64,000 nt of DNA from Halococcus sediminicola (GTDB lineage: Archaea; Halobacteriota; Halobacteria; Halobacteriales; Halococcaceae), in the NCBI RefSeq assembly GCF_000755245.1, contig NZ_BBMP01000005.1, positions 1 to 64,000 of the forward strand, given 5' to 3'. The stretch's first letter is position 1. Every line of letters begins with the position of its first letter. The notes under the pieces are model-generated. The model ran no database searches. It saw only the letters and a list, made by a program, of their open reading frames with translations, and was not told where the DNA came from. Shown here piece after piece: positions 8,747 through 52,888 of this stretch. Made by a program: the position numbers and the translations under genes.

Positions 8747-8839
8747 GTGCAAGACACGCGCACTGTATCTCGCCGGCGATTTCAATGAGACAACAGTCTG
8801 CGATGTGGAGACTCTGAAGCTGAGTACTAATTTCTATAG
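8747..8839 (+). repeat. Dispersed palindrome element, copy A
   Basis: Starts with a degenerate palindrome (GTGCAAGACAC, spacer, TGTATCTCGC) and ends at TTTCTATAG 93 bp later, the same plan as the other copies described in the findings. It lies between two leftward genes. Confidence 0.55.
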
Positions 8840-8926
8840 CAGTAGAACAAACGAGCAACTTCGATGAGGGCATGAGCGTACTGCCGTCAGCATACTCGAC
8901 CTCCAACGTCGGAATTAAGAGCGGCG

Positions 8927-9154
8927 TCAGTCATCGTAGAGCGTTTCTTCACACTTGCAGTCTTCAACGGCTTCGACGAACTCAGCACGGCAGTCCGGTG
9001 GGCAGAACCAGTAGCGGACAAGACGCTCGTCATCAATGATCACGTTGATAGCCTCGTCTCGTGGAGGGATTCGTCGGTTCCGCGGGCCACTTTCGTCAAC
9101 AACGCGAGCGTGTCGTCGCCAAACGAGGATATCCGCCTCTCTTCGTCCAGACAA
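8927..9154 (-). CDS. Small putative zinc-binding protein
   Basis: A 75-residue frame with a basic N-terminus and a C-terminal RYWFCPPDCRAEF plus CKCEE, four cysteines able to bind a metal. This resembles small haloarchaeal zinc proteins in which a WFC..C box follows a beta-hairpin, but I do not recognise a named family. The N-terminal 25 residues look unlike the rest, so the true start may be further in. No operon partner. Confidence 0.4.
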   Translation of the reverse strand: MSGRREADILVWRRHARVVDESGPRNRRIPPRDEAINVIIDDERLVRYWFCPPDCRAEFVEAVEDCKCEETLYDD

Positions 9155-9207
9155 ACTTTTTCAATCGACTGTATATGAATCTATATCAAATTCAGGGACA
9201 ACAGCTA

Positions 9208-9522
9208 CTACAGCTCGTCAAGATGCTCGACGCCTTCTTTCGAGACGTTCGCTTCCGTAATCGTCTCGGGCATCCAGTCGGGCTTGTCTGGGGGTGCCTC
9301 GTCGCGCCACGCCCATCCCTCGTAGATGTGCAATTTCTTCGTCCCCGTTTCACGAATCCGGAATCGGATACGGGTCGCTTCTGATTCGCTATCGGCCGGG
9401 TCGAACCGCCGAGCGGCTTTGAGTGCTGCCTGCCGGGGCGTCTTCCCGGTGAACCTACTCGTCTCCTCGCCTGTTTCCTCCCGGAGCGTGAAATTGCGCA
9501 CTTCATCCGTTTCGCGTGCCAT
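9208..9522 (-). CDS. Non-histone chromosomal protein MC1
   Basis: A 104-residue MC1-family protein. MC1 is an architectural DNA-binding protein of methanogens and haloarchaea that bends DNA sharply. Diagnostic segments are VRNFTLREETGEE, FTGKTPRQAALKAARR, ETGTKKLHIYEGWAW and KPDWMPETITEANV, in family order. ATG 9522 (MARETDEVRNF) is chosen because the MC1 fold begins there; the 27 residues upstream in frame are not family-like. The length compares with about 93 residues for methanogen MC1. Confidence 0.93.
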   Translation of the reverse strand: MARETDEVRNFTLREETGEETSRFTGKTPRQAALKAARRFDPADSESEATRIRFRIRETGTKKLHIYEGWAWRDEAPPDKPDWMPETITEANVSKEGVEHLDEL

Positions 9523-9640
9523 GATTGTCTTACGTGAACACAGCACTAGCCCTCTAATAAATGTATCTGAGTCAGGCGGTTCCTCGTAAGATGAAGATCT
9601 CAATGCTCGATGAGAGCTACCGACGTTCGGAGTTGGTGGA

Positions 9641-10036
9641 CTAATCGCGTACTTCTGCGAAGGCGACGTTCTGGCGCACTTCTGTGACTTCGACGGTCAC
9701 CTCATCGTCGGGACGCCCTCCGGGAACGATCAGCACGTAGCCACGCTCGATTTTCGCTATCCCGTCACCTTTGTCGCCCAGCGTTTCGATGGTTACCTCG
9801 CGGACGTCGCCGGTATCGACTGGCGGCGTCGGTGTCGACTCTGCGGACGGTTGCTCCTGTTGGCTTTGGCTCTCGCTGGGCTGGGAATCCCCGAATATCG
9901 CCACTCGATAGGTCTCGCCAGCCGAGATCGTGCCTAAATCGAGTGCGTCCTGTGGCACCTCAATCCTGTATGAGTCGTCGTCTTTCTCTATTGAAGCCGT
10001 GAACAAACTCTCCAGTGGATCAGGGATTTCTACCAT
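9641..10036 (-). CDS. TRAM domain protein
   Basis: A 131-residue protein whose C-terminal 60 residues form a TRAM domain (VTIETLGDKGDGIAKIERGYV, then IVPGGRPDDEVTVEVTEVRQN), an OB-fold RNA-binding module. The N-terminal half has a DUF7513-like MVEIPDPLESLFTA start and a Ser/Gln/Pro-rich linker. Small TRAM proteins in archaea act as RNA chaperones; this one is likely cytosolic. The spacing to the MC1 gene (about 120 bp, same strand) allows but does not prove co-transcription. Confidence 0.88.
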   Translation of the reverse strand: MVEIPDPLESLFTASIEKDDDSYRIEVPQDALDLGTISAGETYRVAIFGDSQPSESQSQQEQPSAESTPTPPVDTGDVREVTIETLGDKGDGIAKIERGYVLIVPGGRPDDEVTVEVTEVRQNVAFAEVRD

Positions 10037-10132
10037 TAGACACCCGCTCCCGCTCTGTTGCCGGTGTTCGATATCGCTCTCGATGAGACAGCGAGAGCGT
10101 ACGTTCGACGGAACGAAACATCACTCATAGTA

Positions 10133-10420
10133 TCAGGCTTCGGCAGCCACGTATTGGTCTTCCCACTCGCGGCGGGCTTCGATTTCTCGCTGGCCGCGCT
10201 GAGTTACCTGGTAATAGTTCGTTCGGCGGTCGATCTGACCCTTTTCGAGCAGGCCCTTCTCGACGAGCGTGTCGAGGTTCGGGTAGAGCCGTCCGTGGTG
10301 GATCTCGCTCTCGTAGTACTGTTCGAGTTCGTCTTTGAGCGCCAATCCATGCGGTTCATCCTTGCCGGCTGCCACGTACAGCAGATCACGCTGGAAGCCA
10401 GTCAGATCGTACATATCCAA
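10133..10420 (-). CDS. PadR family transcriptional regulator
   Basis: A 95-residue winged-helix repressor of the short PadR type: LTGFQRDLLYVAAG, GLALKDELEQYY, HHGRLYPNLDTLVEKGLLEKG and a wing with RRTNYYQVT. The dimerising C-terminal helix is short, as in the haloarchaeal subfamily. A close paralogue lies at 47789-48088. Its promoter region has a TATA-like box flanked by the inverted repeat TTATTCG / CGAATAA, which suggests autoregulation. Either M1 or M3 (10414) could be the start. Confidence 0.9.
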   Translation of the reverse strand: MDMYDLTGFQRDLLYVAAGKDEPHGLALKDELEQYYESEIHHGRLYPNLDTLVEKGLLEKGQIDRRTNYYQVTQRGQREIEARREWEDQYVAAEA

Positions 10421-10426
10421 TAGATG

Positions 10427-10462
10427 GTTATTCGAAGGCTAAAATATATCGATACCGAATAA
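10427..10462 (-). promoter_or_regulatory. PadR promoter with flanking inverted repeat
   Basis: TTATTCG (10427-10433) and CGAATAA (10456-10462) are exact inverted copies on either side of an AAAATATAT tract (10441-10449) just upstream of the PadR start. The position fits a repressor site over a TATA box; this is inference. Confidence 0.45.
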
Positions 10463-10646
10463 GATCTGTTACTCGGCCTGACTCAGAGATCGTGGCATAG
10501 ACGGTCTTGCGCTCGTTGTCGTCTGCTCGTCGTGCCGCATCCGCGAGCAGGTCCACGACTTCGCTATCGAGTGCGTCGTAGAAGTCCGTCGAGAGGCCTG
10601 GTCCACGGGTTGGAGTTGGTTCAGATTCGGTCCGGAATCCAGTCAT
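10428..10646 (-). pseudogene. DUF1931 histone-fold protein, damaged copy
   Basis: The central part (STDFYDALDSEVVDLLADAA, then RRADDNERKTV) is nearly the same as the intact 55-residue DUF1931 protein at 49422-49589. It lacks the normal N-terminus (MADLIVQSAVKDEIGEMNV), replaced by unrelated residues, and it runs past the expected QPRDL end into about 20 extra residues. It overlaps the end of a truncated PIN-like gene and the PadR promoter. It is probably a relic, though a start at 10646 could still yield a 72-residue protein. Confidence 0.6.
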
Positions 10647-10935
10647 CGGCACTTTCGAACCCGTCGAGCGCGTCTTGGTTCGGGTATGCTGCGACAATCT
10701 CTTCGAGTTCAGCAGCGATCTCGTTGGCGGGGCGGTCTTTGTCATGAACGATGACGATACCAGAATGATCGGCGGGTGTGAGGTCCGTCGCGTTGAAATC
10801 AAGAATGTTATTCGTCACAAGCACAGTCTCCGTTCGACGACAGTACGGGAGAATATCCTCGAAATCGTCTGCCCCTTCAAAGAGTGCGTCGAGAACGTAT
10901 TCGGCCGTGATACCGTGAGAATCGAGCTCTGCCGC
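10621..10935 (-). pseudogene. N-terminally truncated PIN-like (DUF5615-type) nuclease
   Basis: The frame reads AELDSHGITAEYVLDALFE at the left-over N-terminus and later VLVTNNILDFNATDL, HSGIVIVHDKDRP and IVAAYPNQDAL. These are the central and C-terminal blocks of DUF5615/PIN-like nucleases, where the usual first block with the catalytic Asp (LLDEN-type) should precede. Here the frame ends at a TAA exactly where a 70-bp repeat begins (10935). The repeat junction has therefore replaced the N-terminus. A GTG at 10824 could still start a 67-residue product, which is probably not functional. Confidence 0.65.
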
Positions 10936-11005
10936 TAGTTATCGACCTTTGTACTTCCCCTCTACTTCATGCTTGAGGGACTTAAGCAAGATTCTCATAG
11001 AGTCA
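10935..11005 (+). repeat. 70-bp repeat, copy 1 (ends ATTCTCATAGAGT)
   Basis: Starts TAGTTATCGACCTTTG, passes GAGGGACTTAAGCA and ends GATTCTCATAGAGTCAGT. It is about 80% identical to 17330-17402, and its last part is shared with 53392-53408. It cuts the PIN-like gene, so it marks an insertion or recombination end. Confidence 0.65.
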
Positions 11006-11091
11006 GTACCGTCCCTGTGTTACTGTATGATTTATTATCTCTCAAGTCGTATGGTGTTTGTCCTCTTGTAACACAGAGGTAAAGTCAAACT

Positions 11092-12501
11092 ATGAGCAGC
11101 ACAACAATCTCCCCAGACAGATCCGCCATTGCGGACCTTAGAGCAGCCGTCACCGGCGACGTGATTACCTCCGACGATGCAGGCTATGAGGAAGCGTGCA
11201 AGCTCTGGAACGGTGCCATCGACCGCCGTCCGGCTGTGTTCGTCCGTGCGGCATCGGCGGGGGATGTAGCGACGGCGATTGCGACCGCCCGCGAAAACGA
11301 CCTCCCGCTGTCGGTTCGCGGCGGCGGGCACCACGTCACGGGCGTCGCGCTCGTCAATGATGGACTCGTGGTCGATCTGAGCGGGATGGACAAAGTCACA
11401 ATTGATCCAGAGACTCGCACGGCTCAGGTCGGACCCGGCGCACGGGTGGCCGATGTTCTCAACCCTGCTCAAGAGCACGGTCTCTCGCCAGTTGTTGGGT
11501 CCGCAGCGCAAAACGGCGTGGCCGGGTCAACGCTGGCGGGCGGCATCGGCTGGCTCCGCCGGAAGGTTGGCCTGGGAGTCGACAACCTCCGGTCGGTCGA
11601 ACTCGTGACCGTCGAGGGTGACATATTGACCGCTAGCGAGTCGGAAAATTCCGACCTGTTTTGGGCGATTCGTGGCGGTGGTGCGAACGTCGGCGTAGTC
11701 ACGAGCTTTGAGATGGAACTCGTCGAAGCCGGTCCCGAGATGGCCATCACCCAGGTTATTTATCCGATCGAGGCTGCCAGCGAGGTTCTGCGGTCCTACC
11801 GAGCGTACGCCGAAGATGCACCCGACGAGGTAACTACGCTGATCGCGCTGATGCGGATTCCGCCACTCCCGATGGTCCCGCCAGAAGCTATTGGCACACC
11901 CGTCGTGATGGTTTACGGTGTCTATGCCGGCCCAATTGCGGAGGGCGAACAGGCGATGACACCATTAGGCGAACTCGGCGAGCCGATGATGGACATGAGC
12001 GGTCCACAGCCACTCGCCGCCGTCCACGAGGTCGCCCGCGAGCTGTTTCCTGATGCGCGTCGTTACTCCTGGCATTCGCTGTACGCAACCGAACTCGCCG
12101 ACGAGACCATCGACGCGATGGTCGAAGCGCTGGTGAATTCCCCCTCTGAGGAAAGCGAACTTAGCATCTGGCACCTCGGCGGAGCGATTGCCGACGTTGA
12201 CGGGGGCGCGACCGCATTCGGGTTCCGCGACGTTGCATTCATGCTGAGCGTCGGCGCCGCTTGGGAGGATCCCGAGCAAGACGAGGAATGCACCAACTGG
12301 GCACGCGAGGTTTGGGAGGGTCTTCGAGACGATTCAGCCACAGTCGAGGGGTTTTATCCTGGATTCCCCGGGGTCGTTGAGGGAGAGGAACGTGCCCAGA
12401 TGGCCTATGGTGACAACTACGACCGCCTAACGGAAATCAAAGCCAAGTGCGACCCTGAGAATGTGTTCCACCACAACCTGAACATTAAACCCGCATCCTG
12501 A
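11092..12501 (+). CDS. FAD-dependent oxidoreductase, berberine-bridge-enzyme type
   Basis: A 469-residue flavoenzyme of the VAO/PCMH fold. The N-terminal FAD-binding half contains LSVRGGGHHVTG with His80 at the position that normally carries the covalent 8-alpha-histidyl FAD bond, and LAGGIGWLRRKVGLGVDNL downstream. The C-terminal BBE motif (YGDNYDRLTEIKAKCDPENV, then FHHNLNI) is intact. Such enzymes oxidise sugars, alcohols or alkaloid-like compounds with O2 or another acceptor; the substrate here is unknown. The family's second flavin-linking Cys is not obvious, so linkage may be through His only. It is monocistronic, and a dispersed element lies just after the stop. Confidence 0.9.
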   Translation: MSSTTISPDRSAIADLRAAVTGDVITSDDAGYEEACKLWNGAIDRRPAVFVRAASAGDVATAIATARENDLPLSVRGGGHHVTGVALVNDGLVVDLSGMDKVTIDPETRTAQVGPGARVADVLNPAQEHGLSPVVGSAAQNGVAGSTLAGGIGWLRRKVGLGVDNLRSVELVTVEGDILTASESENSDLFWAIRGGGANVGVVTSFEMELVEAGPEMAITQVIYPIEAASEVLRSYRAYAEDAPDEVTTLIALMRIPPLPMVPPEAIGTPVVMVYGVYAGPIAEGEQAMTPLGELGEPMMDMSGPQPLAAVHEVARELFPDARRYSWHSLYATELADETIDAMVEALVNSPSEESELSIWHLGGAIADVDGGATAFGFRDVAFMLSVGAAWEDPEQDEECTNWAREVWEGLRDDSATVEGFYPGFPGVVEGEERAQMAYGDNYDRLTEIKAKCDPENVFHHNLNIKPAS

Positions 12502-12519
12502 ATATATAGTGGGTTTGGT

Positions 12520-12610
12520 GTGATCGATACGCGCCCTGTATCTCGCACGCTGCATCTCCCAACTGCTGGAGGATTCGTGCAAAACTACGAATTGCTCCGA
12601 TAACCTCTAG
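12520..12610 (+). repeat. Dispersed palindrome element, copy B
   Basis: GATACGCGCCCTGTATCTCGCAC, then GCTGCATCTCCCAACTGCTG, ending at AACCTCTAG. The body matches copies at 48225-48320 (inverted) and 49219-49313 over more than 80 bp. It follows the FAD enzyme stop directly and may sit in its 3' untranslated region. Confidence 0.75.
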
Positions 12611-12701
12611 ATATTGTCAGTCGACCAAACAGTTTTGCACCGCCGCAAACCCGCAACCAATACATTGGCGAGCCATTATTTTCGATATATCTGTATGCGA
12701 T

Positions 12702-13274
12702 TCATAGAAGTCTTTCGACGGCTGCTATCAACTCGTCTTCATCCGTCCACACGAACAGTCGCCCCTCCCGGTCAAGGGGGTCAAACCCATCGAGTTGGAG
12801 CGCGCTGTACGGCTCGTTACCATCGAATTCCTCATCAAGCGTCGATTGGTCATACTCACGCTTGAGAACGTGCGCTCGTTCGAAGTAGGGCTGATGAAGA
12901 AAGAACATCCCTTGCTCGACAAGGAATCCACTGCGGTTGTGTTCGGCAACGCCAACGAGATATGTCGCGTAGTCAGCGAGAATACGAAACTTCACCAGCG
13001 TATTCGACCACTCACCGCGAATGTCCACCATCAGGAACGCATATACATCGGAGCGACGGTTCAATCGATCTTTGACGAGCTGGAGCCGATGGATTTCCGG
13101 CATGCCGTAACTTCCGAGCACGAAATATGAACTCTCGTACTCGAACAGCGGCGTCAGTTCGGCAACCGCGTCAAGCGCTTGTTCGTATTCGTGCGGCGAG
13201 AGCGTGTCGAGGTGGGCGTACTCGGCAGCGCGGTCGGCGATATCCTCAACATCCGGCTCCGAATGATCGTCCAT
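12702..13274 (-). CDS. Conserved haloarchaeal protein, possible Rossmann/TIR-like fold
   Basis: A 190-residue acidic cytosolic protein; ATG 13274 (MDDHSEPDVED) is preferred because the six residues before it are basic. The core reads YFVLGSYGMPEIHRLQLVKD, then VYAFLMVDIRGEW, then KFRILADYATYLVGVAEHN. This alternation of strands and helices suggests a nucleotide-binding or TIR-like fold similar to proteins that assess a stress signal. I do not recognise a named family. It is divergent from the winged-helix gene at 13387, with a shared 110-bp promoter region, which hints that the regulator controls it. Confidence 0.6.
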   Translation of the reverse strand: MDDHSEPDVEDIADRAAEYAHLDTLSPHEYEQALDAVAELTPLFEYESSYFVLGSYGMPEIHRLQLVKDRLNRRSDVYAFLMVDIRGEWSNTLVKFRILADYATYLVGVAEHNRSGFLVEQGMFFLHQPYFERAHVLKREYDQSTLDEEFDGNEPYSALQLDGFDPLDREGRLFVWTDEDELIAAVERLL

Positions 13275-13386
13275 ACGCTGTTTACGAAGCAACCGGTATT
13301 ATATCCTGCTCACCAAATTAGCCACCAGTTCTACAACCAAATTGGTCGAGATAAACTATTAGTACCGGCAGGTCAAACGACTACCC

Positions 13387-13812
13387 ATGAGTGAGACAGC
13401 ATCGGCGGACGGTTTCGAGGGAGAGCAAGAGCGCGAGCGGTTGCACGTGGCCACGCAGGACACGCGGTTCGTCCTCCTTCAGAACATTCTCGGCCACCCG
13501 TCACAGCTCCCTTCGATGAGGGAACTCGCCTACGTCAATCCAAGCAAGAGTGAGGGAACGATTTACCAACATCTCGAACGGCTGGTTGAGGCGGGTATCG
13601 TCGAGACATACATGCTCCCATCGGACCAACGCAAACGCGACCTTCCGTACAAGTTCTATGGAGTGAGCGATGAAGGATGGGCGTTTCTCGATCGCCACGG
13701 CCTGTTGCGCGCCGAGGAAACGTTACGCGCGGTGTACGAGCGCGTCGAGAAAAACGAACAAATCAAACGCTTCGAGCGTGCGCCCCGGCCACAGGAGGAG
13801 ACCGATGACTGA
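13387..13812 (+). CDS. Winged-helix transcriptional regulator
   Basis: A 141-residue PadR/ArsR-like regulator with RFVLLQNILGHPSQLPSMRE, a recognition helix in KSEGTIYQHLERLVEAGIVE, and a wing ending KFYGVSDEGWAFLDRHGLL. A damaged paralogue is found at 52148-52425. An AT-rich AAACTATTAGT tract 30 bp upstream is a plausible TATA box. It overlaps the next small gene by 8 nt and is divergent from 12702-13274. Confidence 0.82.
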   Translation: MSETASADGFEGEQERERLHVATQDTRFVLLQNILGHPSQLPSMRELAYVNPSKSEGTIYQHLERLVEAGIVETYMLPSDQRKRDLPYKFYGVSDEGWAFLDRHGLLRAEETLRAVYERVEKNEQIKRFERAPRPQEETDD

Positions 13813-14023
13813 CCGTCATTTCGAATCAGACGATATAGACGACCAGTCGAACGGCCATCAGCAGGCGGTCGAAGCCTGCCAGCACGCGGCTGACGCGCTT
13901 TCCAATGGCGACCTCTCCCGTGGCCGCTCGTTGCTCGATGAAGCCGCCCGCGCCGTCGAGCGCGCCCAGCACGACGATACAGAGCAATCCTACCGCGAGA
14001 CCGCCTACGACTGCTACGACTGA
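13805..14023 (+). CDS. Small acidic helical protein, co-transcribed with the winged-helix regulator
   Basis: A 72-residue protein starting at ATG 13805, 8 nt inside the regulator gene, so translation is coupled. It is highly charged and helical (QQAVEACQHAADALSNGDL, LDEAARAVERAQ), like a small bundle or coiled coil. I know no named family. The tight coupling suggests that it works with the regulator, for example as a modulator. Confidence 0.6.
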   Translation: MTDRHFESDDIDDQSNGHQQAVEACQHAADALSNGDLSRGRSLLDEAARAVERAQHDDTEQSYRETAYDCYD

Positions 14024-14119
14024 CCTTGTGATTTTCTTCCCGCGCTGGAGGACCGAGTTTTCGGTTTCATTCTCTGATACGGCCCAACAATTATCATTGC
14101 TGGTAGACAAGAGCGATGT

Positions 14120-14506
14120 ATGGCTTCAGATCGGTACACTCATCGTTCATCTTCCCAGCGAGAGGAACGGAGAGCCACGGATCAGGCTGCCAACCATCCA
14201 CCTCCCCACCGAGAGAGACGGAGGCCGCCAGAGCAGTACAACCAGCTATCTCCTCAGCATATGGAGCGCGAGAGTTTTCTGTCGCGTGCAAAGCGTAGAA
14301 CCGGGTTCTGGCTCACCGCCATCGCTGGTATATTGGTCATTTTCGTACTGGTCGCTATAGTGTATGGGACCGCAGACGAGATAGGACTCATCAACGCAGA
14401 CGTGTGGATGACGAATTTCGGGATGATTTGTGGATTAGTTGGAAGTTGGTGGCTCTATGGCCAATTCCTGAAAAAGAGATTCGGATATCCCTCCATCTTC
14501 CAGTAG
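14120..14506 (+). CDS. Small membrane protein
   Basis: A 128-residue frame with a hydrophilic, Arg/Gln-rich N-terminus followed by two hydrophobic segments (FWLTAIAGILVIFVLVAIVY and a second ending LVGSWWLYGQFL). The first 47 residues look unlike a haloarchaeal protein, so the start may be the internal ATG (MERESFLSRAK, at 14261). No family recognised. A dispersed element begins at its stop codon. Confidence 0.5.
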   Translation: MASDRYTHRSSSQREERRATDQAANHPPPHRERRRPPEQYNQLSPQHMERESFLSRAKRRTGFWLTAIAGILVIFVLVAIVYGTADEIGLINADVWMTNFGMICGLVGSWWLYGQFLKKRFGYPSIFQ

Positions 14507-14600
14507 CTATAGAGGTTAGCACTGATTTTCAGAGTTCGAAAATTACAGTTTCTCGACTTGTTGAAACCGCCGTGCAAGATACGCGCCCTGTATCTTGCAC
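14507..14600 (-). repeat. Dispersed palindrome element, copy C (perfect palindrome)
   Basis: On the plus strand CTATAGAGGTTAGCACTG opens the element and a perfect 11-bp inverted repeat (14572-14582 and 14590-14600, spacer GCGCCCT) closes it. Beyond the palindrome, the minus strand reads GGATAAGAATG, a TATA-like box. The distal end (14507-14538) matches, inverted, the end of the IS1595 remnant at 57208-57238. Confidence 0.8.
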
Positions 14601-14659
14601 GTTCCACGCTCATTCTTATCCCGGCAGCCCTCCCACCCCACTGGAGCCGTGAGGTGTCC

Positions 14660-14983: not shown

Positions 14984-15049
14984 CTAGAAAGCAAGCAAAT
15001 CCGGACGTATAGTGGTTGCTGAATCAGATTCGTCGGTTGAACTATAATA

Positions 15050-15100
15050 CTCAACTAACCCCTACAAACAGGCACTCCTCCGCTTGTAGGGTTGCCTGAG
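15050..15100 (-). promoter_or_regulatory. Structured leader-like hairpin upstream of the SMR gene
   Basis: CCCTACAA (15059-15066) pairs with TTGTAGGG (15084-15091) across a 17-nt loop, with a second outer pair CTCA / TGAG (15050-15053, 15097-15100). It could be an RNA leader of the SMR gene or the end of an IS200/IS605-like element. I cannot match it to any known guanidine riboswitch consensus. Confidence 0.4.
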
Positions 15101-15120
15101 AGATAGCGACAGCAGCTAGA

Positions 15121-15215
15121 TGCGAGATACAAACTCTGCATCGGTCACGTCATTACTGACAGGAAATGTGCAGATCGGACGCGTCTATACAAGATACAAA
15201 ACGCGTATCTTGCAT
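15121..15215 (-). repeat. Dispersed palindrome element, copy D/E
   Basis: The palindrome at 15188-15215 (CAAGATAC / GTATCTTG) is followed, leftward, by a second degenerate half-copy at 15121-15149. Right of it the sequence CATACTTATCCTGCCAGC matches the flank of copies at 14572 and 48292, and contains a TATA-like ATAAGTATG on the minus strand. Confidence 0.7.
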
Positions 15216-15263
15216 GTCGACTGCGTTCATACTTATCCTGCCAGCCCCCAGGCGGGGGTACCC

Positions 15264-32024: not shown

Positions 32025-32097
32025 TCTGATTATGGGTTAGCGGAAGTCGTCGGAGTTCTCACATCCTAGGTTGGCGACTTGACTTGTTTAAATCGGT

Positions 32098-32126
32098 GTG
32101 CAAGATATAGTGCGCGTATCTTGCAT
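32098..32126 (+). repeat. Dispersed palindrome, copy F (palindrome only)
   Basis: TGCAAGATATA, TGCGC centre, TATCTTGCA: 9-bp arms. No CTATAG end found within 150 bp on either side. Confidence 0.6.
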
Positions 32127-33186: not shown

Positions 33187-33281
33187 GTATGAGATACACC
33201 CTTTGTATCCCGCACAGGATATCTGACAGCTGTCGGAGAGTACACAAGTTAGAGTCTGGGTTCTATTGCTAACCTCTATAG
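33187..33281 (+). repeat. Dispersed palindrome element, copy G
   Basis: GTATGAGATACACCCTTTG, then TATCCCGCAC, then about 60 bp and the end GCTAACCTCTATAG at 33268-33281. Confidence 0.65.
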
Positions 33282-35376: not shown

Positions 35377-36016
35377 ACCACCAGCAAAGTGCTACGAGTG
35401 TTCTGCCTGAGAACCGGAGTGAACCGTGTAGGGACGCTCATAATCAACTTTCTACGCTGGCAACAGAACCGGACCACAACGGGGCCAGTTTGCCACCACC
35501 ACGCCAGGATCACGTCGGTTCTGCTGTCTTCTGATCAGAGGTTCTCTACCGCTTTTCCAGCAGTAAGACGCCGCAACAAACCAACTGGCAGATTAGTGTA
35601 GCGCTACGCCCGCTGGCTGGCAAGGGGTAGTAGTCTAATCCCGGCTGGCCCACGAGCACGATCTCCATCCGACCGGAGAGATGAGCACGCAGACCGACCG
35701 AGGTCCCATATGCGGCAGGCGGTGCGGTCTATCGGTGCAGATCTCGTTCGGTCTCGCTATTCACCATTCGATGCGCTCCCGCCTGACGCCGGACGTGCGA
35801 TCAGCATCCGAACGACTGGAAGACGGTACAGCCCGCGATCTGTGAGACCCGCCCGCCAAGTTATCGTCGTGATCTCGTCGAGCGACCAGTTCTATAGCAC
35901 TTAGCAAAATTGACGAGTAACCGGTCTGCTGTATACAGCCTCTATAGCTCCCACTCCGGACTCAGTAATTCCGACTGGCACGTATCTGCCGTCGGATAGC
36001 GGATCGTACCTCGCCG
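35377..36016. other. Intergenic region, no gene seen, one partial dispersed element
   Basis: No acceptable reading frame. A degenerate inverted copy of the dispersed element lies at 35892-35954 (CTATAG at 35892; a weak palindrome CTGTATACAG / CTATAGCTCCCAC at the right). Confidence 0.5.
35892..35954 (-). repeat. Dispersed palindrome element, copy M (short, degenerate)
   Basis: Similar to the 51822-51912 copy around GTATACAGCCTCTATAGCTC, with a CTATAG at the other edge. Shorter than full copies. Confidence 0.4.
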
Positions 36017-46701: not shown

Positions 46702-46740
46702 GTTCCTCTTGGTCGAAGGAGACAAAGAGATTCCGTACTA

Positions 46741-47502
46741 CTATTTCTCGGCGTACTCGGAGGGATTCGTCGGTCGAGACGTGTCCGTCTGTTCGGGAGA
46801 TAACGAGACGAATTCCAAATCTTCGCTCGCAAGCAGTCGCTCGGCTCGATCGGTTACCGACGGAGCAACCAAGATTCCTCTGACGGATTTGCCGTACAAC
46901 TCGCGTTCGAGAGCTTCGACGTACCGATGCAACTGTCCGACCGCGTCCGGACCCACTCGGCGGCGTTTGAGCTCGATCGCAGTGGGAGTGCCATCGGCGT
47001 CCTGACCGTAGATATCGATTGCCCCCGCGACAGTCTCGCGTTCGGTCGCCATTGCCCTGAATCCAGTTTCGAGGACGTCAGGATTGGCAAGAATTCGTTG
47101 GCGGAGGTCCTCTTCACTGCCTTTGAGTGCGAGACCCGAGGTGTCATCCAACTCCAGTAGTGAAGCCTGTGCAACCGTCTTGAAGGTGATCTCAAGCTCT
47201 TCGTGAGGTGAGGTGCGGACACTCTCGACGATGAGGCTGTCGCCGTCGAGACGAGCGTTGTGCGTCGAACCGGGTGGCTGCCAGTTGACCGGTTTGCGCT
47301 GGCTGTCTTGGTGAACCAACAGCGTGCCATCGGGCTTGAGAATTACCAAGCGCTCACCAGGCGGGAGATGACTCGATGCCCGTCCGTCGTAGTCGACCTC
47401 ACACTCTCCGACGAGTGTGAGCATTCCGCCGCGCTCGAGGCCCGTGCTAAGCAGTTTGAGCACAGCTTCTGGCGCTGGATCAGTGAGCGATGAGACGGGC
47501 AT
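46741..47502 (-). CDS. nucS: NucS (EndoMS) mismatch endonuclease
   Basis: A 253-residue DNA repair nuclease. The N-terminal half carries the NucS signature (LVGECEVDYDGRASSHLPPG, then RLVILKPDGTLLVHQDS and KPVNWQPPG). The C-terminal PD-(D/E)XK domain shows GAIDIYGQDADG (Asp163) and AIELKRRRVGPDAVGQLHRY (Glu177, Lys179), which correspond to the catalytic residues of Pyrococcus NucS. Archaeal NucS cuts both strands at G-T and related mismatches and works with PCNA. A C-terminal PCNA-interacting peptide is not obvious. Full length, no lesions. Confidence 0.95.
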   Translation of the reverse strand: MPVSSLTDPAPEAVLKLLSTGLERGGMLTLVGECEVDYDGRASSHLPPGERLVILKPDGTLLVHQDSQRKPVNWQPPGSTHNARLDGDSLIVESVRTSPHEELEITFKTVAQASLLELDDTSGLALKGSEEDLRQRILANPDVLETGFRAMATERETVAGAIDIYGQDADGTPTAIELKRRRVGPDAVGQLHRYVEALERELYGKSVRGILVAPSVTDRAERLLASEDLEFVSLSPEQTDTSRPTNPSEYAEK

Positions 47503-47788
47503 AGTAGCTGTTTGGATCTACAACCAGGTAAGTGGATCCGGTGGTGCACATGGGAATCCAGATGCTTTCGACCATCTAAGGGGATAGCGACTGTTGGCAC
47601 AGCCAACAGTATTTTCGTTCGGTGCTAGGGATGGACGGTTCCGTCTGCAAGAACGAGCGCATTGCGAGCCCTACTATCCCAGCGACAGCAGGAAATCCTC
47701 GCCGTTCACAGTGGAAAGGTTAACTGTAGCAATACTCGATACTCGATGCTCGGTACTTGATACGCTCGTTAGTGGTCGTTAAGGAACG

Positions 47789-48088
47789 CTATGTTTCGAC
47801 GTCAACAAGCTCGTTTTCCCACTCGCGACGGTCTTCAAGTTCGCGGTGGCCGCGCTCGGTGAGCGTATAGGAGTTTGTTCGTTTATCGATCATCCCTTTC
47901 TCGACGAGACCCATCTCGGTGAGTTGGTCAAGATTGGGATAGAGCCGCCCGTGATTGATTTTTGTTGAATACTGCTCTTCCAGTAGTTCCTTAATCGACA
48001 ACCCGTGAGGATACGAGTCGTTCTCGATGCTGGCTATCACATACAATGTATCGCGTTGGAATGCAGTGAGGTCATCCATCATAGTCAT
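47789..48088 (-). CDS. PadR family transcriptional regulator
   Basis: A 99-residue paralogue of the regulator at 10133-10420: LTAFQRDTLYVIASIENDSY, HGLSIKELLEEQYSTKINHG, RLYPNLDQLTEMGLVEKGM, KRTNSYTLTERGHREL. The winged helix is intact. An exact CCTGATCTATCAGG palindrome touches its start codon and a TATA box lies right behind it, so transcripts are probably leaderless and the repressor sits over its own start. Confidence 0.9.
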   Translation of the reverse strand: MTMMDDLTAFQRDTLYVIASIENDSYPHGLSIKELLEEQYSTKINHGRLYPNLDQLTEMGLVEKGMIDKRTNSYTLTERGHRELEDRREWENELVDVET

Positions 48089-48113
48089 CCTGATCTATCA
48101 GGTGTTTATTTAT
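48089..48113 (-). promoter_or_regulatory. PadR operator and TATA box
   Basis: CCTGAT at 48089 pairs with ATCAGG ending 48102 (6-bp arms, 2-nt centre); TTTATTTATA follows at 48105-48113 (TATAAATAAA on the coding strand). Spacing to the ATG (about 17-25 nt) fits a leaderless archaeal promoter. Confidence 0.6.
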
Positions 48114-48224
48114 AAGCTCTTCTGACTATTCTCGGGTTGTCTAGTGAGTCGGAGTATTCCAGTACGTCGCCAACTCTCGACGGCGTAGCCGAGAAAGCGC
48201 TCGTCACTCGACTTTGAGTTCGCA

Positions 48225-48320
48225 ATTATAGGGATTATCGGAGCAATCCATAGTTTTACACGAGTCTTCTCCAATAGTTGGGAGATACAGCGTGCGAGAT
48301 ACAAAGCGCGTATCTTGCAC
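48225..48320 (-). repeat. Dispersed palindrome element, copy H
   Basis: On the minus strand: palindrome 48320-48292 (GTGCAAGATACGC / GTATCTCGCAC), then TGTATCTCCCAACTATTGGA and a body like copies B and I, ending AATCCCTATAA at 48225. A TATAAGTATGGG box lies just outside the palindrome (48335-48342). Confidence 0.8.
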
Positions 48321-48382
48321 GTTCTACGCCCATACTTATACTGCCAGTGCCGCAGTGGGGTGCTATCGTCCTAAATCTATCA

Positions 48383-49096
48383 TCAGTCGTTCTCTTTCCA
48401 TTCGCCAAGATCCGTTTCAGTGCGCTCGCCTTTGGCCCGCCGGTTTTGAGGCCAGAACGTAAGTACGACCGCCCCAAGGCAGAACACTCCAACAACACCA
48501 AGGACTGCGAGGCCAGGAATCGAGCCGACCGCGGCCGCCTCGATGACAGGACTGGACGAGAGTGCCGTGATGCGAAAGACCCACGCGACGAGAAGCACTA
48601 CGAGAAGTGGCAGATAGATGCGCCGCAACCGACGTCCGAGAGCCTCTCGGGCGGGTATTTTCAGCTTTGGATGGCGGTAGTCGTCGCTCAACTCTTCACG
48701 CCAATCATAGTGTTCAACGCCAGCAGTGGGGTCGAGCGCGTTTGCAAACAGATTTTCCTCGATCATGCGAGCACGCGAGCGGTAGACGTCGTAGTCTCGG
48801 TAGCGCCGCGCTTCGATGACAAGAAACACGACAGTCACCACCATTCCAGCGAGCAGGATAGCGGGGGAGGTTCCACTACTGGAAAACGCATACACGAGAA
48901 CCGCGGAGATCACGGTGACAGCCCACTTCGTGGATTCATCCATACGCTGTCGCCACATGGTCACGCGAGACATCTCACCGCGGTAAAGATGTGCCATCAC
49001 TGATCCGAGTCCCGTACTCTGATCAACCATCTCGCGGCCAATTTCACGTTCTTCAGGAGCTTCTGGGTCAAAATCGTCCGTCTCTGATGGACTCAT
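48383..49096 (-). CDS. DUF2270 family membrane protein
   Basis: A 237-residue membrane protein from ATG 49096 (MSPSETDDFDPEAPEEREIG). The N-terminus has the DUF2270 block (AHLYRGEMSRVTMWRQRMDE) before two TM helices (AVTVISAVLVYAFSSSG, AILLAGMVVTVVFLVIEARR). A cytoplasmic loop with YDVYRSRARMIEENLFANAL follows, then two more TM helices and a charged C-terminus. Function unknown; widespread in haloarchaea. The upstream in-frame extension to 49138 is not family-like. Confidence 0.88.
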   Translation of the reverse strand: MSPSETDDFDPEAPEEREIGREMVDQSTGLGSVMAHLYRGEMSRVTMWRQRMDESTKWAVTVISAVLVYAFSSSGTSPAILLAGMVVTVVFLVIEARRYRDYDVYRSRARMIEENLFANALDPTAGVEHYDWREELSDDYRHPKLKIPAREALGRRLRRIYLPLLVVLLVAWVFRITALSSSPVIEAAAVGSIPGLAVLGVVGVFCLGAVVLTFWPQNRRAKGERTETDLGEWKEND

Positions 49097-49143
49097 CCCA
49101 CCATGATTGGTTATGCAATGATATATAACCTCACACACTGATC

Positions 49144-49171
49144 CTGTCAGTAGACACTTGGTTGCTGACAG
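49144..49171 (+). repeat. CTGTCAG hairpin, copy 1
   Basis: CTGTCAG (49144-49150) and CTGACAG (49165-49171) are exact inverted copies with TAGACACTTGGTTG between. A near copy is at 52909-52936. Confidence 0.45.
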
Positions 49172-49218
49172 AGCTCAATTCGATAGCTAAGAGGACAAGA
49201 GGTAGCGACAGAAACTAA

Positions 49219-49313
49219 GTGCAAGATACACCCTCTCTATCTCACACGCTGCATCTCCCAACTGCTGGAGAGGACTCGTGCAAAACTATGGATTGTTCCG
49301 ATAATCCTCATAG
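49219..49313 (+). repeat. Dispersed palindrome element, copy I
   Basis: GTGCAAGATACACCCTCTC, then TATCTCACAC, then GCTGCATCTCCCAACTGCTG and a body matching copies B and H to the end ATAATCCTCATAG. It lies about 110 bp upstream of the DUF1931 gene. Confidence 0.75.
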
Positions 49314-49421
49314 CACGGCCGCGAACGCAAATGGATTTCCCCTTCAAGAACCCCCGTAATTTCCGGTGACACGGCTCATGCAGCCGGTGGTTATAAGTAG
49401 ATCCCACAGTTCTTCTTGTTG

Positions 49422-49589
49422 ATGGCAGATTTAATCGTTCAGTCGGCCGTGAAGGACGAAATTGGGGAGATGAACGTCTCGTCGGACTTCTACGATGCGC
49501 TCGACGAGGAAGTAGCAGATCTACTCGAAAATGCTGCCCGTCGCGCCGACGAAAATGACCGCAAGACCGTCCAGCCGCGCGACCTATAG
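49422..49589 (+). CDS. DUF1931 histone-fold protein
   Basis: A 55-residue protein, MADLIVQSAVKDEIGEMNVS, then DFYDALDEEVADLLENAARR and DENDRKTVQPRDL. This is the compact haloarchaeal histone-fold DUF1931 type, distantly related to archaeal histones; its role (DNA packaging or regulation) is unproven. TTATAAGTA at 49391-49399 is a good TATA box about 25 nt from the start, so the transcript is short or leaderless. A damaged paralogue is at 10428-10646. Confidence 0.85.
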   Translation: MADLIVQSAVKDEIGEMNVSSDFYDALDEEVADLLENAARRADENDRKTVQPRDL

Positions 49590-49683
49590 GCGCTGACGGT
49601 TCGGCTACCGACTTATTGACGTTGGGCGCGACGACCCGACGTCAGGACCTACTCACTTCTGAGCAGCGGCTACGGTCGTCGGC

Positions 49684-49712
49684 GTGCGAGATATAGGGCG
49701 CGTATCGGTCAC
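49684..49712 (+). repeat. Dispersed palindrome, copy J (palindrome only)
   Basis: GTGCGAGATATAGGGCGC, then GTATCGGTCAC. The right arm has two mismatches. It sits 50 bp before the acetyltransferase start. Confidence 0.55.
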
Positions 49713-49765
49713 GCTCCATTCCAGACCTCACGTGATTTAAAGAGTGAGCAGCGGAGAGTCGCTGT

Positions 49766-50233
49766 ATGAAACTCATCGAAGCCACCGCTGAAGATCTCGA
49801 TGCAATCGTTGACCGCTGGTATTCTCTTGCAAAATCGATGGAAGCCTACAGCGAACTGAATGAGCTTTCCTACGCGGATGTCGACGAAGTTTCCGACGAT
49901 GGCTTCCGCGCCCATCTTGACGACGAGGAAGTTACTGACTACCTCATCGTTCACGAGACCGAGTCCATTGGCTTTCTCACGCTCCGGGAGGGCTACCACT
50001 CTTCCAGAGAATATTCGCATTATCTGCGTATCGTGAACCTTGCTATCGACGAAGATCGCCGGAATCGGGGTCACGGCAGCGAAGTCGTCGATCTTGTGAA
50101 GGAGATAGCCCGCGACCGGGGTTGCGACCACCTGAAGGTTTCCTGTGAGTGGCACAACAAGGACGCGCGCCGCTTCTATCACGACACGGATTTCCGACCG
50201 AAGCAAGTCGACTACGCACAATCATTGAATTGA
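49766..50233 (+). CDS. GNAT family N-acetyltransferase
   Basis: A 155-residue acetyltransferase. The acetyl-CoA binding loop is RNRGHGSEVVDLVKEIARDR (motif A, R-x-x-G-x-G type), preceded by strand LRIVNLAIDED and followed by HLKVSCEWHNKDARRFYHDT and DF (motif B region). Substrate unknown. It stands alone between dispersed repeats. Confidence 0.88.
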   Translation: MKLIEATAEDLDAIVDRWYSLAKSMEAYSELNELSYADVDEVSDDGFRAHLDDEEVTDYLIVHETESIGFLTLREGYHSSREYSHYLRIVNLAIDEDRRNRGHGSEVVDLVKEIARDRGCDHLKVSCEWHNKDARRFYHDTDFRPKQVDYAQSLN

Positions 50234-50342
50234 GTCAGGAAACTAATGCGGTCTTATCATTGGTCTTCTGCTGACTAACCCTCTGAGTCGGTCACGGTGT
50301 TATTGGCAGTATCCAAGTAGTTCGCACACCTCGTGCTGAACT

Positions 50343-50362
50343 CAGAGCGCATGTCTTGCACG
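50343..50362 (+). repeat. Dispersed palindrome, half copy K
   Basis: CAGAGCGCATGTCTTGCACG resembles the right arm of the palindrome; the left arm is missing. It lies in the intergenic DNA before a leftward gene. Confidence 0.35.
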
Positions 50363-50396
50363 TCAGTCTGTCAGGATCGAGAAGATCCTTCTCGCC

Positions 50397-50591
50397 TCAA
50401 CTGGAAGAATTATCTGGTCGTTTCAAAGACTCGTCTTCAGAGTCCTCCATAGACTGTCGTTTGCCGCGCATATACATCCAGTATACCACTATGAGAGTGA
50501 TCGGAAAGAATACGATAGCGAGGATAGCCAATGGAGGAAACATCACGAAGAGTGCCCATGTCGACCAAGAAACGAACTTGTCACGAGCCAT
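50397..50591 (-). CDS. Small membrane protein
   Basis: A 64-residue protein from ATG 50591 (MARDKFVSWSTWALFVMFPP). It has two close membrane helices (WALFVMFPPLAILAIVFF and ITLIVVYWMYMRG) and a charged tail ending RPDNSSS. The frame extends 43 codons upstream (to 50720) with a Cys/Trp-rich stretch, which could be part of the gene. No family recognised. Confidence 0.5.
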   Translation of the reverse strand: MARDKFVSWSTWALFVMFPPLAILAIVFFPITLIVVYWMYMRGKRQSMEDSEDESLKRPDNSSS

Positions 50592-50752
50592 ATCTGACCA
50601 AAATGGTTCAGACGGTAAATACCAACGGTCATTGACACCGTTCATTATCCAGCAAGCAAGATTCGCTGTCCCGATACCTTGCAAGTAACTGGTACTGACT
50701 ATATGCTCTGAGTCAGTCACGACTCTTTTGACGAGAATCAGAGGTGTTCGAT

Positions 50753-51094
50753 CTATGAGGAGATGTAGTCGATCACCCGACTCGCCACGTCCTCGGTGCG
50801 GTCGTCAACGAGTGATGTCAGGTAGTGATCAACGTCCGCAGCACTGTTGAGAGTCGCAAGCGACCACGGGAGCATGTGACTTTGTTTTCCGAGTGCGTCA
50901 CCCTCGTAGTCGTCGTCTCTGAGTGTGAGCGCCGCTTCGTGATAGGTCTTCGTGGAAATCAGGGCCGTGATGAGTTGCACGCCGTGATTCGGGAATCGAG
51001 GCGTTCCCAGCACGAGCATCGGGCGACCTTTCTCCGAGAGCGGGTCGGTCGCCCAAACGATGTCACCGCGCTCCAGTTCTTCGAACGCAGTCAC
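50753..51094 (-). CDS. MazF/PemK-like toxin
   Basis: A 113-residue PemK/MazF-fold protein: ELERGDIVWATDPLSEKGRP, MLVLGTPRFPNHGVQLITAL, then ISTKTYHEAALTL. The GDIVW start and RP..V segment are the MazF core. It overlaps the upstream winged-helix gene by 4 nt (ATGA). MazF-type toxins cut mRNA at specific short sites. The S-x-x-T residues of the active site (ISTKTYH) are in place. Confidence 0.82.
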   Translation of the reverse strand: MTAFEELERGDIVWATDPLSEKGRPMLVLGTPRFPNHGVQLITALISTKTYHEAALTLRDDDYEGDALGKQSHMLPWSLATLNSAADVDHYLTSLVDDRTEDVASRVIDYISS

Positions 51095-51450
51095 TGTACC
51101 TCTTCCATCTCGTCGGTTCGGAGGTCTTCAAGACGCTCTTCACCGTACTGGTCGTCTGCCCTCTCGTGGTGTCGGTGGAGCCGGTAGGCCGACTGGAGTC
51201 GTTCTTCGTCGTCAGTGATCGCCCAGTACGGGCGCTTGTGCCGCACGAGATTGCGTTCCTTCAATCGTGAGAGGATCGCACTGACAGCGTCCGTCTCCAA
51301 CCCGAGTCGTTCGGCAATCGTCGCCGCCTTCCACGCCCGGTCGTCATTCCCGTCGAGGAACAGTACGATTCGTTCGGTATCATTTCGTTCCTCGAATTTG
51401 TCGGCGTCAGCGTTTTCGAACTCGTCGATATCGATAGTACCGCTCGACAT
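51091..51450 (-). CDS. Winged-helix antitoxin for the MazF-like toxin
   Basis: A 119-residue protein with a MarR-like wHTH (RIVLFLDGNDDRAWKAATIA, ERLGLETDAVSAILSRLKER, then NLVRHKRPYWAIT) flanked by acidic ends. It overlaps the MazF-like gene. It takes the place of the usual MazE and would repress the operon as well as block the toxin; this pairing recurs in haloarchaea. Confidence 0.8.
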   Translation of the reverse strand: MSSGTIDIDEFENADADKFEERNDTERIVLFLDGNDDRAWKAATIAERLGLETDAVSAILSRLKERNLVRHKRPYWAITDDEERLQSAYRLHRHHERADDQYGEERLEDLRTDEMEEVQ

Positions 51451-52147
51451 AGACTAGTGTTTGGACTGTTGGAACATAGTTGTTTGGCATGTTTGTTACT
51501 ATCGATAATATTGTCGGCCCAGAAATGCGGGTGATAAGTTACACTCTGCTGGCATCGTGACGAGGTGCTCCTCGAGATCGTGCGTCTAGCACGTCGCCAG
51601 CTCACCTGGACTACAGTGCTCGCACAGCTGCAACGGGCCTTCGAGGTGGCCGAGTTCGACGCGAACCGCATGAGTCGGGCGGGACCGAAGATCACGCTGG
51701 AAACCGGTGTGGAACGCCAGCGACGCTGCGAGCGCGTCGACGACGAATGGCTCTCGACACCCATGCCTTTCCCTTCGATACGTTCAATTTCTCCGATGCG
51801 AAACAACGAACGGCGACTTGCTGCATACAGCCTCTCTATCTCGCACGCTGATCTCAGTCAGTCACGAGTCTGGTACGTTAGAAAGTATGAACACCACTGT
51901 GAATCCCTATAGCGTTTAGGAGGAATATTGATCGATCTACCTCATAAACCCAATATGTCTATTGAACGGTCTCGGCGGGCGACTGTTACATTCAACTCTG
52001 TCGATACTGTCGTGGGCTCAGAAACGGCTGGCTTTCTGTTGTGATCAGCTAGTGTTACTGAGCAGTGGAAATCGAACGACGCGAGAACGACTGGCTCGTG
52101 GCAATATCCTGGAGCGAGCGCGCCGATATCTACGCCGTCGACGAGCA
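51451..52147. other. Non-coding/decayed region
   Basis: About 700 bp. A frame at 51565-51760 (LLEIVRLARRQLTWTTVLAQ) is helical but basic and unlike neighbours; it may be a decayed gene. A dispersed element lies at 51822-51912. Confidence 0.4.
51822..51912 (+). repeat. Dispersed palindrome element, copy L
   Basis: TGCATACAGCCTCTCTATC, then TCGCAC, then about 60 bp and AATCCCTATAG at 51902-51912. The left arm is poorly kept. Confidence 0.55.
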
Positions 52148-52425
52148 CCCCTCCGAGAGAGCGTTTGGTGCGGTCGCCGATTGGGCTGCCGTCGATGTAC
52201 GAACTCGAGCAATTGAACCCGAGCATCAGCGATGCTACAGTCTACAAGCACATCCAAAAACTGATCGATGTTGGTATCATCGAAGAGGCGACACTTCCCA
52301 GTGGTGAACATCGGCAAGGATATCCCTGAAAGTTCTACACCATGAGTGATGCAGGATGGGAGTTCCTCGACGAACACAGCCTGCTGAAGTCTGGGGAGAC
52401 GCTCCAACGCATTCGTCGGTCTCAC
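52148..52425 (+). pseudogene. Winged-helix regulator, truncated with internal stop
   Basis: Translation in one frame gives GLPSMYELEQLNPSISDATV, YKHIQKLIDVGIIEEATL, SGEHRQGYP, a TGA stop, then KFYTMSDAGWEFLDEHSLLK. This aligns closely with the intact regulator at 13387 (LPSMRELAYVN, KFYGVSDEGWAFLDRHGLL). The N-terminus is missing, and after LQRIRR the DNA jumps into a MATE transporter fragment. Confidence 0.75.
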
Positions 52426-52828
52426 TGTGTTAGGTATTCTCGTCTTCTTGGCCGCGAGACCAATCGCGTCGGTATTCACAACCGACCCGGCAGTCGCGGA
52501 TGCAGGGGCGGCATTTCCCAGGTACTCTGTCCCAACCTTCGGGTTCATCGGCGTCATGCGCGCCTACACCGGAAGATTCCGCGGGGCTGGCAAGACATTC
52601 ATCGCCGCTGTCATCTCAGTCGTGACGCTGGGCGTCGTTCGGTTGCCGGTCGCGTGGACCGGCGCGGACGCACTCGGGTCCGTCGATCTCTGGCTCTCGT
52701 TCGCTGTCTCGAACGTCGTGGGTGGCGTCATTGCGTATCTCTGGTTCAAGCGCGGCGCGTGGCGAGAAACGGACCTTGCCGACCGAAACGGGCACGTTGA
52801 ATCGCCAGCGAGTGCGACAGACGACTAG
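52424..52828 (+). pseudogene. C-terminal fragment of a MATE family efflux transporter
   Basis: About 134 codons read LTVLGILVFLAARPIASVF, FIGVMRAYTGRFRGAGKTF, then VVTLGVVRLPVAWTG and AVSNVVGGVIAYLWFKRG, the last third of a NorM/DinF-type MATE protein. The first eight or so membrane helices are absent. The fragment begins exactly where the winged-helix relic ends, so the two were joined by deletion. Confidence 0.75.
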
Positions 52829-52845
52829 AGATAACCACGTTCAGC

Positions 52846-52888
52846 GTGCGAGAAACGCGCGTGCTAAATTGCTGAGGGGTTTCTATAG
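52846..52888 (+). repeat. Dispersed palindrome element, copy N (short)
   Basis: GTGCGAGAAACGCGCGTGC followed by TTTCTATAG at 52880-52888. Central part deleted. Confidence 0.4.

Follow-up and report, generated by a model that had tools for sequence, protein, structure and literature searches.

The repeat family in the window

The stretch analysed here, called the window, covers the opening 64 kb of contig C5 (NZ_BBMP01000005.1, 222 kb) of the haloarchaeon Halococcus sediminicola, whose assembly (GCF_000755245.1) comprises 3.76 Mb in 27 contigs. Scattered between its genes is a short palindromic repeat. Judged from sequence, these repeats are probably the recombination sites of a compact haloarchaeal tyrosine recombinase, in an integron-like system where arrays exchange single-gene cassettes. 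An initial annotation had described a dispersed, palindrome-ended element of about 95 bp that is confined to gaps between genes. We recovered copies by iterated profile search of fetched contigs (87 matches at E ≤1) and called genes with our own codon-usage open reading frame (ORF) picker; under that gene model all recovered copies are intergenic, as had been proposed. The dispersed family is real and genome-wide, but the 95-bp unit is just one of its forms, and the common part is a 27-bp near-palindrome, the core.

Seven of the eight copies originally listed as full length belong to one family (profile E 4e-12 to 2e-19), here called type I. These copies consist of a core and a 63–68-bp tail that mostly ends in CTATAG; within the site family they are the forms with one core and a conserved tail, and such tails also occur in Halogranum amylolyticum and in two genus mates, G008 and G002. 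The eighth (15121-15215, copy D) is a different object, with two cores 67 bp apart start to start, which the profile matches only partially (E 0.009 and 0.26). The shorter copies fared variously: one listed as palindrome-only at 32098 is actually a full copy (32034-32125, E 2e-12), the one at 49684 has a core with little tail, the one at 50343 is part of an apparent decayed composite of two cores (about 50268-50360), the one at 35892 comes down to a core-like site at 35927 with 4 mismatches, and the one at 52846 was recovered by none of the scans. A protein-coding module was also considered. One tail subfamily has an open frame across the palindrome, but the repeat is not a coding module because the other tail subfamilies carry stops in that frame.

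Core sites, flanks and composites

The core has a 10-bp arm (TGC or TGA followed by a variable triplet and ATAC), an asymmetric 7-bp spacer and an inverted arm. Two spacer classes occur, GCGCYYT (G-type) and ANCCTCT (A-type), and the arms are drawn from a small set of half-sites, with left and right variants combining freely. In about 792 kb of genome contigs there are 69 cores within 3 mismatches, against none after shuffling; one of them (C5:199545), with an atypical spacer, is probably a false match. When palindromes were sought in the same contigs with spacers of 6 to 8 bp, 52 were found within 6 mismatches against 4 after shuffling, and in 51 of the 52 the spacer is exactly 7. These chance controls are one block shuffle each, of single bases, the half-site variants were chosen after the copies had been seen, and core scans tolerate 3 to 6 mismatches. 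Arms separated by a spacer are how the core sites of tyrosine recombinases are built, and the sequence of the 27-bp near-palindrome has this anatomy. Among the possibilities raised initially was a protein-binding site; in the specific sense of a putative tyrosine-recombinase core site tied to one recombinase family (see below), this is the one that the evidence favours.

In this genome some cassette ends carry one of two flank families. L1, with 9 seed sites, adjoins G-type cores (in copy C, one of the nine, the spacer is reversed), and L2, with 10 seed sites, adjoins A-type cores; both profiles were built from sites that they subsequently find. The conserved flank word ATAAGTATG that had been noticed outside the palindrome is genuine and is part of L1, a family of about 40 bp that adjoins cores at 9 of 11 profile matches, the profile having been built from those 9. 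In other genera, several single cores are followed about 20–35 bp on by a conserved TTTCAACAGRGCC-like word (L102:2063, L119:6438, L156:1501, L160:1501, and likewise L170:1495, L174:3481 and L186:9837), which is presumably similar to the terminal repeat of IS6-family elements.

Both here and in other haloarchaea, cores also pair in inverted orientation at a distance of 66 bp, giving a 93-bp composite. Start to start, 73 inverted core pairs lie 65–67 bp apart, with a spacing of exactly 66 in 62 of these; the other core pairs within 400 bp number 37. A consensus was made from 43 non-redundant composites, thinned from 69, of this and other genomes. It reads TGc.aGATAC-GCGCtCT-GTATTCAGCA on the G side and TGCtagATAC-AGAGG.T-GTATtcAGCA on the A side, with a 39-bp middle containing gAcCTaCccAg..tCTGTCAGaA. 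Mean information is 1.35 and 1.08 bits per position in the two cores, which is partly selection as the sites were found by their cores; it is 0.60 bits in the middle, which was not selected on, and 0.07 and 0.10 bits in the flanks.

The initial annotation had also suggested the gene of a small structured RNA, and a related possibility is that the repeats are operators or RNA genes driven from the ATAAGTATG flank. The flank is conserved and has a TATA-like word at 9 sites; against this, it is present at a minority of cores and lies on the cassette side, no Rfam match was found in the window, and the 43 composites have no arm covariation beyond column make-up (z -0.9 to 1.4 for arm pairings). 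We give this explanation almost no weight. A single-strand fold like that of integron attC sites was considered as well, and is not general: in addition to the missing covariation, just 4 of 10 composites fold at z ≤ -2.5.

Features of the repeat family in the window, by position
Feature	Position	Strand	Evidence
Single A-type core	7750..7776	-	core scan
Type I element; core 8748-8774, G-type spacer GCGCACT, ~66-bp tail ending CTATAG	8747..8839	+	profile 8748-8836, E 4e-12
Type I element; core 12521-12547	12520..12610	+	profile 12521-12609, E 4.7e-17
Type I element (copy C); perfect 29-bp palindrome 14572-14600	14507..14600	-	profile 14510-14599, E 1.6e-15
L1 flank	14601..14633	-	flank profile
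L2 flank	15078..15119	+	flank profile
Composite site (copy D); A-type core 15121-15147, inverted G-type core 15188-15214	15121..15214	-	core scan
L1 flank	15220..15259	-	flank profile
Type I element, full length	32034..32125	-	profile E 2.1e-12
Type I element, A-type core	33187..33281	+	profile 33192-33278, E 1.2e-12
Type I element, G-type core; left boundary of candidate solo cassette	48225..48320	-	profile 48229-48319, E 1.7e-19
L1 cassette-end flank holding ATAAGTATG, adjoins G-type core	48321..48360	-	flank profile
DUF2270 membrane-protein gene between inverted type I elements, candidate solo cassette	48383..49138	-	Pfam PF10028 E 1.6e-69
L2 cassette-end flank, adjoins A-type core	49175..49217	+	flank profile
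Type I element, A-type core; right boundary of candidate solo cassette	49219..49313	+	profile 49220-49306, E 5.4e-17
Solo core, little tail	49685..49711	-	profile and core scan
Decayed composite; core 50334-50360, second core ~1 base short (by eye)	50268..50360	-	core scan
Type I element, A-type core	51818..51912	+	profile 51819-51909, E 3e-16

In copy C the spacer runs opposite to its direction in the remaining copies. The DUF2270 gene is bracketed by an inverted type I pair with L1 and L2 inside, and together with this pair it is a candidate solo cassette. The window also has two small genes (10428-10646 and 49422-49589) that share the motif SDFYDALDxEVxDLL and lie in an inverted repeat that is 76% alike.

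Arrays and their genes

Outside the window, composites are found in arrays. On contig C23 of this genome all nine oriented composites point the same way, as does the intact recombinase gene there. In a chromosomal array of about 32 kb in G148, a genome of the Haloprofundus group, 18 composites are plus-oriented, none minus-oriented and 2 undecided, and orientation is uniform in 11 of the 13 regions with at least three oriented composites. The 19 intervals of the G148 array mostly hold one gene (13 intervals), with none in 2, two in 1 and three or more in 3. The fullest array seen is this one (G148:C1, about 55-95 kb; L174, L175), with 20 composites and mostly one gene per interval.

Twenty proteins, the recombinase included, were scanned with Pfam, and two of the 20 had no match. 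The genes beside sites matched RibD_C (2), GNAT (2), Antibiotic_NAT, APH, alpha/beta hydrolases (2), methyltransferases (4, one of them under the family cut-off), DUF1428, Ribonuc_L-PSP, CNNM/CorC, DUF7537 and DUF2270. Several of these kinds of gene are common in integron cassettes. The Antibiotic_NAT gene (aminoglycoside 3-N-acetyltransferase family, L080:18399-19214) and the APH gene (phosphotransferase family, L065:10222-11331) both lie beside cores, and there are apparent toxin-antitoxin pairs, judged by sequence starts alone, near sites at C23:86271-86826 and C23:62800-63756. In several Haloprofundus plasmids a conserved block with a TFB-family gene stands between arrays, flanked by a lone core on one side or on both (L194:8435-13513, L195:6808-10727 and L196 about 1.5-6.8 kb); this block is possibly the platform of the array.

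These arrays bear on the main rival explanation, which we judge unlikely. Here, the repeats are an insertion sequence (IS) family with its miniature inverted-repeat transposable elements (MITEs): a 0.85-kb unit of core, recombinase gene and inverted core is a small transposon, the 93-bp composites are internally deleted copies scattered among ordinary genes, and genes between two copies move occasionally, as in composite transposons. Dispersed solo copies do exist, and the recombinase gene often sits between inverted cores like an enlarged composite. However, scattered insertions would not be expected to give uniform orientation over some 30–60 kb (a bias tied to replication could mimic it), nor about one gene per interval, and the outer flanks of the cores are the shared families L1 and L2, not random target DNA. 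Among cores beside the recombinase, the sequence on the inner side resembles that of composites in 5 of the 16 A-type and 0 of the 15 G-type ones; a derivation of composites from the recombinase unit has this similarity on the A side only. Of the MITE proposed initially, this much stands: the composites, at 93 bp, could be non-autonomous relatives of the recombinase unit, with sequence support on one side only. The uniform orientation and the sharing of cassettes point beyond simple MITE insertion.

A different transposon explanation takes the repeats as palindrome-associated elements (PATEs) or IS605-type termini mobilised by an HUH transposase. No core-bracketed IS200/IS605 transposase gene was noticed in the listed arrays, though no dedicated search was made, and the G148 array does contain one OrfB-like ORF (named by its sequence start alone). 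An asymmetric spacer, and cores paired in inverted orientation at a constant 66 bp, are more in keeping with a tyrosine recombinase. In its favour, Haloquadratum has such elements, as well as small repeats that insert in palindromes (excerpts of PMC3119063); we hold this explanation to be very improbable.

The recombinase

Contig C23 of H. sediminicola has an intact tyrosine recombinase gene beside cores (C23:35038-35763, 241 amino acids). Relatives at 60–92% identity occur in 22 named loci; at E 1e-20, matches are present in 69 of 293 genomes of the order. The protein passes the Phage_integrase model PF00589 (51.2 bits, cut-off 27.1), and the catalytic residues R72, K131, R191, W214 and Y223, which follow the R-K-H/R-H/W-Y pattern, are invariant in all 23 aligned sequences. 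It passes no NCBIfam cut-off and falls far below the models for integron integrases (TIGR02249 20.9 bits vs 265; PRK15417 15 vs 435). A structure model (pLDDT 78, pTM 0.73, residues 1-32 poor) has Foldseek matches to XerA (E 2.5e-6) and to the integron recombinase 2a3v (8e-5), and resembles the Tn1549 integrase too. From its length and the model, the recombinase seems to be without the usual N-terminal core-binding domain. The family also has a conserved C-x-C-G-Y-C motif (columns around residues 97-104 of the first aligned sequence), which is a possible metal-binding insertion in the catalytic domain.

The recombinase and the cores occur together. Among 34 close relatives, and with 6 mismatches allowed, 21 have a core in the 200 bp upstream, 27 in the 200 bp downstream and 17 on both sides; at 4 mismatches the counts are 16, 25 and 10. 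This compares with 7.6% of random 200-bp windows and with none of five distant relatives, these five being the distant relatives whose loci were covered. The gene is often bracketed by inverted cores, and many alignments between species start or stop at these cores. Perfect G-type cores are present in 18 of the 28 genomes with a close relative (a set picked by hand at about 60% identity or more) vs 76 of the remaining 265 (Fisher p 4e-4). For genomes with distant relatives only there is no association (10/41 vs 66/224).

It is also worth considering that the cores are dif-like sites used by the host XerA or another resident recombinase, with the compact recombinase a passenger. The core resembles dif in its arm-spacer-arm layout, and arrays without a close recombinase exist. 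To our knowledge XerA is near-universal in archaea, and this presumed range is set against a core pattern limited to 94 of 293 genomes. The spacer, moreover, is 7 bp and not 6 in all but one of the palindromes, and the association is confined to one recombinase clade. We consider this explanation improbable, even if dif modules likewise bracket single adaptive genes with inverted sites, as described in excerpts of PMC6449649.

Distribution across genomes

The initial annotation had named a lack of common boundaries outside the window among the things that would speak against the element, and such boundaries are found: a strict core pattern is present in 94 of 293 genomes of the order, and a reversed control pattern in none. 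In a draw of 392 genomes from the phylum 34 match, all of them among the 81 genomes of the same order, with 1 match for the reversed control; the 311 genomes of other orders have no match to the core pattern. Four stretches of viral contigs hold the core pattern as well (L198-L201).

Evidence bearing on a possible movement of single cassettes

Across 34 array regions there are 8 families of homologous between-site segments, the recombinase unit being one, and none of the 8 pairs of homologous segments with known neighbours shares a neighbour. One part of the G148 array (query 1) was compared with 148 genomes of the family, using listed non-self matches of at least 300 bp and at least 75% identity. 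Among the matches listed, 12 of 20 ends lie within 20 bp of a core, where random placement would give 3.3, and 1 of 10 matches crosses a core against 7.1 expected; other genomes are matched one cassette at a time. A second part of the same array (query 2) gave 52 listed matches of at least 300 bp and at least 75% identity, all of which were used. This part behaved differently: over all 52 the ends are not enriched at cores (counts below), and there is some enrichment only among the matches listed with at least 90% identity, where 7 of 24 ends are at cores vs 2.6 expected (p 0.013). Of all 52 listed, 2 cross a core vs 38.5 expected, and both cross just the inner core of a composite; the small number is in large part because homology is limited to the genes. 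Several of the genomes matched by the array queries carry cores at the same ends.

Two loci of the Haloprofundus group, L177 and L197 (the latter on NZ_CP083664.1), share 97.4% identity along 3,076 bp; in both, the match breaks off at the end of a core, beyond which they hold different cassettes. In the Haloprofundus plasmids NZ_CP083668.1 and NZ_MN918442.1 a conserved block starts at a core in both and the adjoining arrays differ, while the other end of the block is at a core only in NZ_CP083668.1. Between Halorientalis regularis and H. persicus the likeness extends over 6.7 kb and breaks off exactly at a core, past which H. persicus has a stretch with one 108-amino-acid ORF that ends at the next core.

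A possible mechanism and its weak points

Our preferred reading, the integron-like cassette system, builds on what can be seen in the DNA: core anatomy, composite spacing, array orientation, the association with the recombinase and single cassettes common to different arrays. In this system the compact recombinase would act on the 27-bp cores. Like cores (G with G, A with A) of neighbouring composites in direct repeat would recombine, with crossover presumably inside the 7-bp spacer, and a circle carrying a single gene together with one composite would result. Run in reverse, the reaction would add such a circle to another composite, and single-gene cassette arrays could thereby grow, shrink and swap members between chromosomes and plasmids in integron fashion. 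A model of this kind accounts for uniform orientation, for about one composite per gene, for mixed gene direction and for shared single cassettes.

Several observations weigh against this reading. The breakpoint tests are mixed: among the query 2 matches listed, 12 of 104 ends are at cores vs 11.5 expected, which is no enrichment, and this query is dominated by two chromosomally conserved genes that often have no nearby core. In a broad all-against-all test, which is weak, 26 of 817 alignment ends fall at cores where 14.7 would be expected, the best of 500 rotations reaching 30, and the Halomicrobium copy of one cassette gene has no adjoining core. Such weak or null tests fit the IS and MITE explanation better. 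Orientation has exceptions, with one mixed region (G185_C3b: 2 plus, 1 minus, 1 undecided) and one where two arrays of opposite orientation run apart (G224_C3), and gene direction inside arrays is mixed. Two further recombinase copies beside cores in H. sediminicola (C23:85.5-86.1 kb and C8:34.3-35.0 kb) are both frameshifted, perfect cores are still carried by the 76 genomes mentioned above that are without a close relative, and at E 1e-5 a close recombinase is missing from the array-bearing genomes G148, G002, G008 and G063, where another enzyme may act or the arrays may be relics. As the G-type and A-type spacers differ, exchange of G by A would be heterologous. Finally, just 6 of 39 type I tails score as the A side of a composite; a derivation of the tails from composites is not claimed, type I may be a truncated composite, a site of a separate kind or a mobile form, and the model does not account for its tail.

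A broader conclusion is possible, and we advance it tentatively. Haloarchaea may have evolved their own integron analogue, in which a minimal recombinase, apparently of a catalytic domain only, captures and shuffles single-gene cassettes at duplex composites among genera, chromosomes and megaplasmids, and the adaptive genes moved would include acetyltransferases, aminoglycoside-type phospho- and acetyltransferase families, methyltransferases and apparent toxin-antitoxin pairs. If true, the integron lifestyle would have arisen a second time, apparently independently, with double-stranded palindromic sites replacing the folded single-strand attC. A cassette system would offer a testable mechanism for the free exchange of single genes between haloarchaeal genera, in cultured and genetically tractable organisms; a compact recombinase for use as a tool in high-salt organisms would be another gain, and intergenic repeats of one class would be explained.

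Comparison with known systems

No description of this haloarchaeal system was found in the open-licence literature (subscription papers were not covered). Tyrosine recombinase families restricted to haloarchaea are known from a review (PMC8371274), and the compact recombinase is like archaeal tyrosine recombinases in general in its Phage_integrase fold and catalytic residues; a term search of the review's available text found no cassette system, and the word "cassette" occurs 0 times in that main text. In Haloquadratum walsbyi, PATEs are linked to IS605-type ends, and small repeats (SMRs) insert in their palindromes (PMC3119063, in excerpt). Like the repeats described here they are short, palindrome-bearing and mobile in a haloarchaeon, and the available text of that paper has 0 occurrences of "cassette" and "integron".

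Acinetobacter dif modules bracket single adaptive genes with inverted sites on plasmids (PMC6449649, in excerpt). These pdif modules are similar in having short arm-spacer-arm sites and single genes between inverted sites. They differ in that the haloarchaeal sites have a 7-bp spacer and not an 11-6-11 layout, form fixed 66-bp composites with a conserved middle, come with their own recombinase, and occur on plasmids and chromosomes alike.

PMC9668308 reports classical integrons in metagenome-assembled archaeal genomes from nine phyla, and a term search of its available text found no mention of haloarchaea; IntegronFinder has been run on halophile genomes, 47 of them archaeal (PMC7923331, in excerpt). 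The system described here is not a member of the integron family, as the recombinase is not IntI and the sites, duplex near-palindromes with a 7-bp spacer, have no conserved single-strand fold. It also differs in that cassette genes point both ways, unlike in most bacterial integrons, and in that the recombinase gene often lies between two cores. The likeness to integrons (IntI, attI, attC) is in the organisation: a dedicated tyrosine recombinase with a recombination site adjoining its gene, tandem single-gene cassettes with adaptive genes, a composite site made of two inverted simple sites, sites oriented one way along the array and, as in CALINs, arrays that also exist without an integrase.

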